From contig NZ_JARXWE010000002.1 in NCBI RefSeq assembly GCF_029893235.1, forward strand, positions 62,001-126,000: DNA of 64,000 nucleotides, read 5' to 3'. The stretch is from Dysgonomonas sp. PH5-45 (GTDB lineage: Bacteria; Bacteroidota; Bacteroidia; Bacteroidales; Dysgonomonadaceae). Of the stretch, positions 8,406 to 15,315 are shown in pieces. The first letter of the stretch is position 1, and every line of letters begins with the position of its first letter. Made by a program: the position numbers and the translations under genes. The notes under the pieces were generated by a model that was not told where the DNA came from, searched no databases, and was given only the letters and a program-made list of their open reading frames with translations.

Positions 8406-8459
8406 ATGAAATACAAAGCAGTATACCTCACATTATTTTTTGTCCTTTTTACTTTAAAT

Positions 8460-8470
8460 ATTTGGGGACA
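8460..8470. repeat. Left direct repeat (target duplication) of the small element
   Basis: ATTTGGGGACA, repeated exactly at 8682-8692 on the other side of the 211-bp insertion. An 11-bp duplication would fit IS4-family-like transposases (10-12 bp). Confidence 0.75.
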
Positions 8471-8681
8471 CTAGTGTCCCATAAAAATTAATCTGCTAAT
8501 AATTGAATAAATTTGATTTATCGATAATGCTGAATTATAGGATTTTACAAAATAGAAATATTTAATTTTTACATTTAAGTACGAATTACAAATCCAAGTC
8601 CGTTTACTTTTATATTGATTGTAATTTAGTGGTATTCAGAAGCATATAAGAGTTAATCGAAATTTTAATGGGACACTAATG
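8471..8681. mobile_element. MITE-like non-autonomous transposon, 211 bp
   Basis: Terminal inverted repeats TAGTGTCCCATAAAAATT (8472-8489) and AATTTTAATGGGACACTA (8661-8678) match at 17 of 18 positions. The element is AT-rich, has no ORF of note, and is flanked by an 11-bp direct repeat. It interrupts the signal-peptide end of the remnant gene at 8406. The mobilising transposase is not in the window; the IS982 element at 46.4 kb has unrelated ends. Confidence 0.75.
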
Positions 8682-8692
8682 ATTTGGGGACA
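8682..8692. repeat. Right direct repeat (target duplication) of the small element
   Basis: Second copy of ATTTGGGGACA. Joining the flanks restores the reading frame from the signal peptide through NIWGQKMDT before a stop. Confidence 0.75.
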
Positions 8693-8923
8693 AAAAATGG
8701 ATACGTTTAAATTTTAATTCAGGTTTCCCTACTACAATTATTATTGATAGTAGAGGAAATGTTTATAAAGTTTTGGTAAATATGGAAATTAAGAAGAAAC
8801 AAGAGATATTCCAATTACTTCAAGAATCAATAGATTCTTTATTAAAAGAAATTCGGTCATTAGATAAAAATAAAATAGGCTAATGTAATATTTTAAGTTT
8901 ATTTTTGTTTCAAACTGCAAGTG

Positions 8924-8959
8924 ATGAAATATAAAATAATATACCTCACGTTATTATGA
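8924..8959 (+). other. Short leader ORF, decayed copy of the upstream gene's start
   Basis: ATG plus 10 codons (MKYKIIYLTLL) and TGA, whose TGA overlaps the ATG of the following gene (ATGA at 8956-8959). The DNA matches the start of the remnant gene at 8406 at about 27 of 32 positions. It may be a fossil start codon region rather than a functional leader; the overlap would nevertheless allow translational coupling. Confidence 0.5.
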
Positions 8960-10272
8960 TTCATAAATTGAGAGTAATTATATCTTTTTTTTGTCTTATG
9001 GGAATGATGTCTTGCTCTTTTATCTCAGCGCAAATTAAGAGTGAAAAATATATCGTTTTATTTGAAAAAAAAGCTTATACCAAAAGTGACAAATATAATT
9101 CGGGTTCTTTTCTGTATGCTGACAGAGTTACAGATATAAGCTCATTTAAAGGTATCCCCCAAGCCGATGCCATAGCTGTTTATGTGCTTTTAGCAAATCC
9201 AACGCTACCAGATGGGTTGAAAAATGCCGACGAAAATAAAATACACTTGTGCATAAGCCTCGATAAGAAAGAGGGAACTAAATCAATAATAGCAGACTGT
9301 AACGGCAATAAAAAATTTTCGGACGAGAAAGTATATACATTTTCTTTGAAAGATTATAACATTCCTCCCTTCTCGGAAGAACAGGAACAGTTATGTATTC
9401 GCTTTTCGGTTAATTCTTTTAGGTATGAGCCGGCGACAGGCTTTACTCCAACAGAGGTATATCTGTACATAAACCCTTTTTATCATGATTTGGGAGACAA
9501 GGAAAATTATCTCACTGAGGATGATTATTATCTTGATTTTTTAATAGCATCGAATAATTATATGAAAGGTTCTGTTAGCATAAATGACAGATTAGTAGAT
9601 ATCTATGAGGGAAAAAGCGGAAGGGATATAACCGTTTCTCATCTTGATAAAAAAATGTCGAAGTTTAGATTTGTGAGCCAAGAACATCTGTTGGGTGAGC
9701 CATTATTAGAAAAAAAGATAGGTGATACTCTTTCTGTGAACAACAGAATGGTATTTTTAGAATCTATTGTAGGTAATAATCTCTATTTGGAAGACCTCGG
9801 AGCGTTGACCGACAGTAGCCGTGTAGGGAGTTGTCTGCCTGTGTTATATTCAAATTCATTATCAACAGGCAAGCCGCTATGTTTGAACGATTTGATGAAA
9901 GATAAATATGTTTTTATTGATTTTTGGGGCAGTTGGTGTGGTCCATGTATAGAATCATTGCCAGAAATAAAAGAACTATACGATAAGATAAAAGGCAGAG
10001 AAGATGTTTTGATTATAGGAATTGCTTTGGAAAATGAAAAAGACATCGAAAAGCTGCAAGGTATCATTGAGCAGGAAAATGTAAGATGGCCGAATGTTTG
10101 GAACAGTTATTCAACTGTAAAAAACCTGGAGTCTGTTCACGGAAAACTGAAAATGGAAACTTTTCCCACTTATATGCTTATTGATAAACAGGGTAAAATA
10201 GTTTATAGAGAGGGGTCGTCTTTCAAAACAAAGGAGGCGATAAATGTCTTTTTGAAATTAATAAAACTTTAA
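8956..10272 (+). CDS. Exported TlpA-like thioredoxin-domain protein
   Basis: 438 residues. Seen: an N-terminal signal peptide (hydrophobic to about residue 26, ending FISAQ; a Cys in GMMSCSF makes a lipoprotein possible), a long beta-rich N-terminal region of unknown family, and a C-terminal TlpA/AhpC-type thioredoxin domain with DFWGSWCGPC (C328, C331) and the cis-Pro motif ETFPTYMLID. Likely a periplasmic or envelope thiol-disulfide oxidoreductase; partner unknown. The ATG overlaps the stop of an 11-codon leader ORF at 8924-8959. The next gene starts 4 bp after its stop, so they form an operon. Confidence 0.85.
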   Translation: MIHKLRVIISFFCLMGMMSCSFISAQIKSEKYIVLFEKKAYTKSDKYNSGSFLYADRVTDISSFKGIPQADAIAVYVLLANPTLPDGLKNADENKIHLCISLDKKEGTKSIIADCNGNKKFSDEKVYTFSLKDYNIPPFSEEQEQLCIRFSVNSFRYEPATGFTPTEVYLYINPFYHDLGDKENYLTEDDYYLDFLIASNNYMKGSVSINDRLVDIYEGKSGRDITVSHLDKKMSKFRFVSQEHLLGEPLLEKKIGDTLSVNNRMVFLESIVGNNLYLEDLGALTDSSRVGSCLPVLYSNSLSTGKPLCLNDLMKDKYVFIDFWGSWCGPCIESLPEIKELYDKIKGREDVLIIGIALENEKDIEKLQGIIEQENVRWPNVWNSYSTVKNLESVHGKLKMETFPTYMLIDKQGKIVYREGSSFKTKEAINVFLKLIKL

Positions 10273-10276
10273 ATTT

Positions 10277-11818
10277 ATGAATAAAAAGAATTACTTAAGA
10301 ATAGCGACACTATTGAGTGTTTTGTTGGTAACTTTCTCTTTAAATGCCAAAGACTCGTTGCCTGTACCTCAAATAAAATCGGGAACGGCTAAGGTTACAG
10401 GAACTATAATTGATAAATATGGTAAAGCGAATATAAGTGATGAGGTGTTTTTTGCTGTATATCATCCAATTACTGCTGAAATATTGATGCTTACGACTCA
10501 AATAAAGGAAGATAATTCATTCAGTATTGAAGTGCCTATTGAAACTGATTATGCAATATCTTTTCTTAGCATTAACGATGAGTGTAGTTCTCTTATGGTT
10601 GGTGTGACTCGTGATGAAACTACGAACCTAACCATTATTTATGATGAAGCAGGAAAGAAACAAATAAAAACTGATGGATTCACCCTTTTTTCGTCTTACG
10701 ACATAGTAAATTCAGCAGATGTAATGAATGATATGATGGAAGGCAATCATCCTTATAGAGAAGTGGCACCGGAAGAAAAACTTTATGAAAAAAGCCTGGA
10801 TTATTATGTGGAATTATCAAAAAAAATGCTGAAACATAGGGAAGAAATAGCTGATAGTGATACCTCTTTGTCAGAGCGGGCAAAACAAATACTAAAAAAT
10901 GAATTTAAACTTTTTCTTATAAATAATCAGTTTTTTCCTTATAAAGAATCGATGGCAATCAATTATTCAAACACAAACCCGGAAAAGAATGAAGATGATT
11001 TCCCAAACTTTATTGAACCTGAAATATCTTACTATTCGTTCCTAAAAGATATGAACTTGAATGATACACTGTTGTTATATACTAGCGAATATTTTAAACT
11101 TTTTCAGAATATATTAGAGAACGAAACCTTGAATGTCTCTCCTATCGATGATATACCAATAGAGACATGGCTTCGTTCAGCAAAGGCAATACTGACCGAT
11201 TTGGTGGGTTTCGATGACGGAATATTTTACGATGTTCTGATAGCCAATGCTTATGCTCAGCAACTAAATAACAGATTAAGGCCGCTGTCAGGAAAACAAA
11301 TTGAAAATATAGAAGCTTACTTCGGAAAAGGTGAGATAGCCCGAATTTTATTAAATAAAAATGAAGAAGTAAAGCAACTATCAGCCACCAAGGGTAATCC
11401 TGTTGTTAATAAAACACCGGATGTGCCGAAAGAAAAAGTAATGGAGGCAATCATTTCGAAATACAAAGGTAAGGTTGTAATTGTTGATTTTTGGGCAACA
11501 TGGTGCGGTCCATGCCTAAGAGCAATGGAAGAAATGAGAGGATTAAAATCGGATCTGAAAGATAAAGAAATTGTTTTTGTATATATGACCAACGAATCTT
11601 CCCCTCAAAATATCTGGACTCAAAGAGTAGAAGGCATTGGCGGTGAGCATTACTATCTCACAAAAGAAGAGTGGAAATATATAACAAACACTTTGGACTT
11701 TTCGGAGATTCCTACTTATTTGTTGTACGACAAGGACGGAAAACTAAAACAAAAGCAGTCAAGTTTTCCGGGTTCGGAACAAATGCAGGAATGGATTGAT
11801 GAGCTTCTGTCTGAGTAG
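10277..11818 (+). CDS. Exported TlpA-like thioredoxin-domain protein
   Basis: 513 residues. Signal peptide ending LNAKD (about residue 25); a N-terminal beta domain (residues about 35-125) resembling the regulatory-like beta-sandwich found before TlpA domains in Bacteroidetes; a helical middle; and a C-terminal thioredoxin domain with DFWATWCGPC (C410, C413) and EIPTYLLYD. Probably an envelope disulfide oxidoreductase working with the protein encoded just upstream; only 4 bp separate the genes. A bidirectional terminator follows. Confidence 0.85.
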   Translation: MNKKNYLRIATLLSVLLVTFSLNAKDSLPVPQIKSGTAKVTGTIIDKYGKANISDEVFFAVYHPITAEILMLTTQIKEDNSFSIEVPIETDYAISFLSINDECSSLMVGVTRDETTNLTIIYDEAGKKQIKTDGFTLFSSYDIVNSADVMNDMMEGNHPYREVAPEEKLYEKSLDYYVELSKKMLKHREEIADSDTSLSERAKQILKNEFKLFLINNQFFPYKESMAINYSNTNPEKNEDDFPNFIEPEISYYSFLKDMNLNDTLLLYTSEYFKLFQNILENETLNVSPIDDIPIETWLRSAKAILTDLVGFDDGIFYDVLIANAYAQQLNNRLRPLSGKQIENIEAYFGKGEIARILLNKNEEVKQLSATKGNPVVNKTPDVPKEKVMEAIISKYKGKVVIVDFWATWCGPCLRAMEEMRGLKSDLKDKEIVFVYMTNESSPQNIWTQRVEGIGGEHYYLTKEEWKYITNTLDFSEIPTYLLYDKDGKLKQKQSSFPGSEQMQEWIDELLSE

Positions 11819-13633: not shown

Positions 13634-14545
13634 CTATACCTGCAACTTCCCTACAAGGTTTTTTATATCAGAAATATTATGACGTTCCAGATAATCGGCA
13701 ATTCCATCAACTACCTTTACGGATATGGTTGGGTCTACAAAGTTATATGTACCTATCTGGATGGCAGTTGCTCCGGCAAGGATAAACTCCACAGCGTCTT
13801 GCCACGATGAAATCCCCCCCATTCCTATAATCGGAATCTTTACGGCATTATATGTTTGCCAAACCATTCTCAGAGCAACAGGTTTTACGCATGGCCCGGA
13901 AAGCCCTCCTGTAATGGTCGATAGTATAGGTTTTCTTTTTTCTACGTCGATGGCCATGCCTAAAAGTGTATTGATAAGCGACAGCGAATCAGCACCTTCG
14001 GCTTCTACGGCTTTTGCTATCTCTGTTATGTCCGTAACATTGGGCGATAGTTTGACAATCAGTGTTTTATGATATACTTTTCTGACAGCCCTAACAACCT
14101 GAGCAGCCGAAGAGGTTGAAGTACCAAAGGCCATTCCTCCCTCCTTAACGTTTGGGCATGAAATATTCAGCTCAATAGCCGGAATTTTTTCTATATCCGC
14201 CAGCCGGGCAGCGCATTCGGCGTAATCTTCAACAGTAGAGCCGGATACATTTACAATAATATTAGTATCAATATCTTTTATTTCGGGATAAATATCAGAA
14301 ATGAAATAATCGACACCTTTATTCTGAAGTCCTACGGCATTGAGCATACCGGCAGCAGTTTCGGCCATACGTGGATAAGGATTTCCTTGCCTGTTGTGCA
14401 GGGTTGTTCCCTTTACACAGATTCCTCCAAGTCGGGAAAGATCTATAAAGTCGGCAAATTCTTTTCCATAACCAAATGTGCCCGATGCTGTCATTACGGG
14501 GTTTTTCAGAGCCAGACTGCCTATATTTACTTTTAGCTTATCCAT
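13634..14545 (-). CDS. pyrD: Dihydroorotate dehydrogenase B, catalytic subunit
   Basis: FMN enzyme that oxidises dihydroorotate to orotate in pyrimidine synthesis. 303 residues, class 1B length. Motifs: [13 protein letters not shown] near the start, [13 protein letters not shown] carrying the active-site Cys, [34 protein letters not shown] and [11 protein letters not shown] for FMN phosphate. The start overlaps the 3' end of pyrK by 13 bp, consistent with coupled synthesis of the PyrD-PyrK heterotetramer. Confidence 0.96.
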
Positions 14546-15315
14546 TTTAAATCTTTTATATTAAATACCGGTCCTTCCGTACATACACAAACATTTCCGT
14601 TGTGCTTAGTGTCTTCAACACAACACAAACATACACCAAAACCACAAGCCATTGTGTTTTCGAGCGAAACTTCGCACTCTATTTGGTTTTTGTGTGCATA
14701 ATTGGCAACAGCCATCATCATTGGCTTGGGGCCACAGGTGTACACTCTATCAAATTTTATATTTTCGAGTATCGAATGATTAGTAACAAAACCTTTCTGG
14801 CCATGGCTTCCATCTTCAGTTGTTGTGTACACTTGGCCATATTGGGCAAAATCGTCTAATTGCAAAAGATCTTTAGATGAACGGGCGCCCAACAGAAACT
14901 TAGGGTTAAATCCACTCTCTTTCAGTATAGCACCCAAGTACAACATTGGGGCTGTACCTACCCCACCGCCCACAAGCAGAAGTTCTTGCTGATGTTTTTC
15001 GGGAGTGGAAAACTGGTTTCCAAGAGGTAAAAGCAAATTAACAATAGTGCCTGTTTTATATTCCGACATTTTTCGTGTCCCGTCTCCTACAACTTGTACC
15101 AAAAGCCATAATTCATTTTTCAGTTTATCAACGAAGTTAACCGAAATAGGTCGTCGTAAAAATGTGGTTGGTGAATCGACTACACGTATCTCAACAAATT
15201 GACCGGGATACATTTCGGGCAGAACCGACTTGTCAGGAGTAGAAAGTTTTAGAAGGCAATAATTCTGATTCAGTTTATTATTTTCAACTACAACCAAATC
15301 AAGCATTTTTTTCAT
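14533..15315 (-). CDS. pyrK: Dihydroorotate dehydrogenase B, electron transfer subunit
   Basis: FAD and 2Fe-2S subunit that passes electrons from PyrD to NAD+. 260 residues. Seen: FAD-binding RRPISVNF (about residue 55), NAD-binding [21 protein letters not shown], and a C-terminal cysteine cluster CGFGVCLCC...CVC typical of the PyrK iron-sulfur site. First gene of the pyrK-pyrD operon. A -7 box TAACTTTG (plus strand 15347-15354) lies 31 bp upstream. Confidence 0.95.

Follow-up and report, generated by a model that had tools for sequence, protein, structure and literature searches.

IS-derived MITEs are described in Porphyromonas gingivalis, where MITE239, MITE464/PgRS, MITE700 and BrickBuilt carry IS5-family ends such as GAGACCTTTGCA (PMC4596501). 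The IS4Sa subgroup is delimited by ends of the form CA------T, direct repeats of 8-10 bp and a size of 1150-1750 bp (PMC2266710). A dependence of transposition on length is known for IS50, in which the distance between the ends was varied experimentally (Goryshin, Kil and Reznikoff 1994, as cited in PMC3464196), and the internal eliminated sequences of ciliates exhibit a length periodicity of approximately 10 bp (PMC3464196, PMC9942856).

The window considered here, the whole 64,000-nucleotide stretch of the Dysgonomonas sp. PH5-45 genome that was analyzed, contains a 213-bp element (CACTAGTGTCCC...GGGACACTAATG, positions 8469-8681, minus strand) that is almost certainly a MITE, a non-autonomous internal-deletion derivative of an IS4-family (IS4Sa-type) IS of about 1316 bp, probably moved in trans by the DDE transposase of that IS. 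The element is AT-rich (24% GC) and lacks any ORF of at least 60 amino acids; it has no coding capacity and no transposase gene. Its terminal inverted repeats lie at 8469-8489 on the plus strand (CACTAGTGTCCCATAAAAATT, the equivalent of the IS right end) and at 8661-8681, read on the minus strand (CATTAGTGTCCCATTAAAATT), where position 8681 is the equivalent of the IS left end, on the side of an internal motif. Direct repeats of 9 bp (ATTTGGGGA) flank the element exactly at 8460-8468 and 8682-8690, their length being set by other copies. The element is thus short, bears terminal inverted repeats and an exact 9-bp duplication, occurs in more than one copy and shares its ends with full-length IS, as is characteristic of a MITE. 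The initial annotation located the inverted and direct repeats correctly, and its near-perfect terminal inverted repeats (17 of 18) become 19 of 21 once its boundaries of 8471-8681 (211 bp) are corrected to 8469-8681 (213 bp). The duplication of 11 bp that it proposed is instead one of 9 bp, as is evident from the second copy in this genome (AAACAGAAT) and from foreign copies (GGTTTATCT and AGGACACCT); the apparent 11 bp arises because CA, the dinucleotide with which the element begins, recurs by chance in the right flank. The target sequence also makes the left junction, by chance, a perfect 16-bp palindrome (GGGACACTAGTGTCCC, 8465-8480).

A whole-genome search reveals the second copy on contig C33 (13517-13729), in the opposite orientation and with a single difference in 213 bases. 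This copy starts with CATTAGTGTCCC, finishes with GGGACACTAGTG and has its exact 9-bp duplication on each side; because that flanking duplication fixes the ends of the element, the boundaries of the window copy follow. The C33 copy interrupts an acyltransferase gene. When 222 bp, comprising the element and one of its 9-bp repeats, are deleted by script, the frame reopens and encodes a 361-residue product that matches Acyl_transf_3 (PF01757) with 74 bits against a cut-off of 31, and a relative (G008) possesses the same gene uninterrupted, with 55% identity over residues 2-359. An empty version is therefore known for the locus of the second copy. The window locus yielded no empty-site counterpart, as the genes beyond der differ in the sister species (G001), which has a transporter-like ORF there. 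The earlier view of the window element as a MITE within the leader of a host gene is sustained by this second copy, by the exact duplications, by the reconstruction of the empty site at the second locus and by relatives in other genera.

The host gene of the window copy begins with a signal-peptide-like leader (8406-8468, plus strand, translated as MKYKAVYLTLFFVLFTLNIWG), and past the insertion the leader frame continues at 8691-8717 on the same strand, where joining of the flanks gives QKMDTFKF before a stop. With the element present the leader frame ends in NIWGH and a stop; excision of 222 bp restores MKYKAVYLTLFFVLFTLNIWGQKMDTFKF followed by a stop, that is, the leader and then a stop eight residues on. 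The initial annotation had proposed both that removal restores the end of the leader and that the gene has decayed, its tail standing in another frame, and both proposals agree with this reconstruction. Because the joined flanks still give a leader and then a stop, the host gene is broken independently of the insertion, and because the element and its duplication together make 222 bp, a multiple of three, the insertion is not itself the cause of the frame difference. The window element is thus a genome parasite of an ordinary kind, lodged in a gene that would be defective even without it. The out-of-frame tail (8725-8883, plus strand, 52 amino acids, FPTTIIIDSRGNVYKV...KIG) was formerly called a thioredoxin tail. 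It is thioredoxin-like by resemblance only (FPTTIIIDSRGNVY), and two TlpA/thioredoxin-domain genes lie downstream of it (8956-10272 and 10277-11818); the tail itself gave no significant Pfam match and no relative among 36 genomes. A second decayed copy of the leader (MKYKIIYLTLL and a stop) is found at 8924-8956, 518 bp beyond the first, with 74% identity over 47 bp, and runs into the gene start at 8956, which suggests a collapsed or decayed tandem family of TlpA-like genes.

Full-length IS with the same ends as the MITE, the elements for which the initial annotation proposed a search, are found at 1316-1325 bp in other Bacteroidales and in Bacteroides and Phocaeicola plasmids. Five of them, in G023, G031, G012, a Bacteroides cellulosilyticus plasmid and a Phocaeicola plasmid, are flanked by exact 9-bp duplications. 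Their transposases match NF033592 with 289 bits (cut-off 115) as well as PF14294 and PF01609 (DUF4372 and DDE_Tnp_1), and the YREK motif, Y-(2)-R-(3)-E-(6)-K, is present in five full-length copies (YKNRWQVELFFKWLK and equivalents). Their ends (CACTAGTGT..., with CA and a T at position 9), together with their length and their duplications, are those of the IS4Sa subgroup. Within the Dysgonomonas genome itself, a search with the end sequence recovers a damaged IS on contig C20 (35522) whose end, CACTAGTGTCCCATTAAAATT, matches each end of the MITE at 20 of 21 positions. The transposase fragment of this copy belongs to the IS4 family (NF033592), retains DUF4372 and part of DDE_Tnp_1, and lacks about 120 residues, including the YREK region. 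No intact transposase gene of this kind is present in the assembly, given the loss in C20 and the junction in C50 described below. Contigs C1 and C42 terminate within related IS ends, and an intact copy may lie in one of these assembly gaps. The expectation of an IS4-like mobilizer is thus supported by the full IS with shared ends and the damaged C20 copy; the reason formerly offered for it, an 11-bp duplication, was wrong in detail, and 9 bp remains compatible with this family.

Several further observations concern this group of IS. On contig C50 (L068, 512-1462) an IS4-type frame passes after about 190 residues into unrelated transposase-like sequence, IS630-like by eye, and this is an IS-into-IS junction. 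Contig C42 stops within the left end of a second IS subtype (14471-14563; the 3' end of L028 and L122), which reads GTCCACTAAAAA as compared with GTCCCATTAAAA, and the Dysgonomonas MITEs carry the end of this second subtype (GTCCACTAAAAA). A circular Bacteroides finegoldii 'plasmid' (NZ_OY725889.1, 1-1318) consists of one IS of this group plus 2 bp, and this 1318-bp circle is either an IS that was excised and circularized or an artefact of assembly.

The relationship between MITE and IS is clearest in a 202-bp element of Parabacteroides sp. 52, which aligns end to end with the left and right ends of the IS (z scores of 5.6 and 10.5 versus shuffles); its match to both IS ends over its whole length shows it to have formed by internal deletion. 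The interior of the window MITE resembles the IS only weakly beyond the ends and the motif. Mobilization in trans by this IS is likely, judging from the shared sequence features. In the mechanism envisaged, an IS4-type transposase would be expressed from a full copy and act in trans on the MITE, recognizing its ends of approximately 20 bp and excising it; insertion would then occur at a 9-bp staggered target, repair of which would duplicate the target, and the window copy would have entered the leader of the independently broken gene in this way.

The same ends recur well outside this genome, as a scan of about 85,000 genomes for both ends at 198-228 bp demonstrates: it yielded 21 stretches, most of them in Bacteroidales and many with exact 9-bp duplications. 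The possibility raised initially, that the inverted-repeat sequence might occur nowhere else, is thereby removed. Relatives of the window MITE are present in Dysgonomonas sp. PF1-14 and Petrimonas sp. IBARAKI, and the MITE set across Bacteroidales comprises 17 types, which form 13 clusters by interior sequence. No near copy of the MITE was found in plasmid and phage collections, and viral contigs contained no element with both ends at 168-259 bp; a motif-anchored scan of the viral contigs gave spacings resembling chance and one apparent full-length IS. Gammaproteobacterial and Myxococcales matches with the same ends, end-pairs in G203 and G375 and a 226-bp pair in G225 were omitted, all being without duplications and motif. 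Outside Bacteroidota, an element of 220 bp in a Nitrosomonas sp. MAG (L098, 5619-5838) shares these ends and is flanked by an exact 9-bp duplication; it lacks the motif and was omitted from the phasing set described below. A locus with the ends and an exact 9-bp duplication around an N-run at the place of the element (L299, G301:C1:197021-197214) was omitted from the length statistics. Two STF2 MAG contigs may be misbinned: one titled Parabacteroides sp. (L100) shares both its MITE and the flanking 9-mers with Petrimonas sp. IBARAKI, and another titled Eubacteriales (L103) carries a Bacteroidales-type MITE.

Apart from their ends, these elements share one fixed internal motif. In the window copy it lies at 8591-8605 on the minus strand (AAACGGACTTGGATT, consensus AAACGGATTTGAATT), corresponding to positions 77-91 from the 8681 end. 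The consensus occurs at position 77 from the left end, upstream of the transposase gene, in seven of the nine full IS copies examined and at positions 76-79 in nearly all Bacteroidales MITE types, most of whose interiors are otherwise unrelated. More specifically, the motif core (GATTTGAA) lies roughly 81 bp in from the left end, with 16 of the 17 types having it at 80-83, while a motif match of at least 13 of 15 positions arises in only about 0.2% of shuffled MITEs. When representatives of the 13 clusters are aligned, the conserved columns are essentially the ends and the motif core, plus isolated bases, and the core is near-invariant, most of its bases being shared by 12 or 13 of the 13 clusters. 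An end-plus-motif search independent of length across 393 Bacteroidales genomes returned 71 matches, mostly at one spacing and many of them full IS copies, versus 18 in a reversed-pattern control. Because the motif persists in MITEs that have no transposase gene, we infer that it is probably a cis-acting site for transposition, and either the transposase or a host protein that bends DNA would bind this candidate site.

The lengths of the short elements are also restricted. In that search and the end-to-end scans, closed elements below 900 bp with the motif or a duplication measure 194, 201-205, 212-215 and 234 bp, and the next length class above the MITEs is the IS itself (994-1415 bp). The lengths of the 17 types cluster at a 10.5-bp repeat (Rayleigh R 0.75, p 6e-5), a period that is the B-DNA value and was chosen with the two main length classes already in view; the best-fitting period among those tried is approximately 10.25-10.5 bp. 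The clustering persists among the 13 clusters with unrelated interiors (R 0.70, p 1.6e-3), in a small sample whose types may share some ancestry and for which the genome-wide end-to-end scan covered 198-228 bp only. Two types (L101 and L279) are off-phase in the distance from the motif to the far end. On the strength of these sequence lengths, it is an evenly balanced proposition that short elements would spread only if their ends stand in the right helical phase, giving lengths about 10.5 bp apart. The combined proposal, that a transposition complex would form, and the element spread, only in derivatives whose ends are in the same phase (approximately 194, 203, 214 and 234 bp) and which keep the cis site about 81 bp from the left end, is offered tentatively, as possible and slightly doubtful.

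The motif and the length classes might alternatively reflect descent from just one or two ancient deletion derivatives, in which case the motif would be a relic of the region upstream of the transposase gene and the lengths would have persisted because indels were few. This is a serious possibility, if not a probable one, and it leaves the identity of the element as a MITE unaffected. Retained upstream sequence is to be expected since the MITEs derive from IS ends, and four 213-bp types (the window element and those of Dysgonomonas, Petrimonas and L103) have clearly related right halves, as L087 and L089 also share theirs. However, most interiors cannot be aligned, and yet the core is near-invariant at nearly the same position; types with unrelated interiors, including those of 194 and 234 bp, differ by whole turns, and the persistence of phasing among the 13 clusters likewise argues against simple inheritance.

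Some regulatory repeats likewise combine a conserved motif in their interior with little variation in size, so that a domesticated regulatory or RNA-coding repeat, whose length and motif were preserved because they serve the host and not transposition, might look much the same. Such an origin is very unlikely: the two copies in this genome occupy unrelated sites, one of them within the acyltransferase gene, the duplications are exact at 9 bp, interiors differ between genera, and the motif is common to a full transposable element. Even more remote is a chance arrangement of inverted and direct repeats in AT-rich DNA. While this AT-rich part of the window has many short, imperfect repeats, the near-identical second copy rules out such an arrangement, and homologues carry their own duplications, making chance vanishingly improbable.

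Should the combined proposal of cis site and helical phase prove true, the Bacteroidales MITEs of this IS4-type transposon would constitute a natural helical-twist experiment, with unrelated interiors supplying evolutionary evidence that an IS4-type transposase depends on a DNA site inside the element and on proper helical spacing between the ends. It would likewise make predictions, open to direct test, about the transposition complex of an IS group that is common in gut bacteria, and would supply a rule by which short derivatives of that group could be found. No description of helical length phasing in natural bacterial MITEs was found in the literature searched, which is weak evidence of absence.

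Like the members of the IS4Sa subgroup (PMC2266710), the mobilizing IS has CA ends with T at position 9, 9-bp repeats, a size of about 1316 bp and a YREK DDE transposase, its placement there being made by the published criteria rather than by ISfinder comparison or a tree; unlike those members, the window element has no transposase gene. The P. gingivalis MITEs (PMC4596501) are similarly short, AT-rich and non-coding, with ends that match a full IS in the same genome; they differ in having IS5-family ends, and the available part of their description mentions no fixed internal motif or length phasing. A mechanism for phasing exists, because the helical-phase dependence of IS50 and the periodicity of ciliate eliminated sequences are known: as in both of those systems, the length classes here are about one helical turn apart, a spacing for which the explanation would be that short DNA forms a loop within a transposase complex. 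IS50 is, like the mobilizing IS here, an IS4-family element, whereas the ciliate sequences are excised by a domesticated piggyBac transposase. In contrast to both, the elements described here would form a naturally occurring series of bacterial MITEs, about 200 bp in length.
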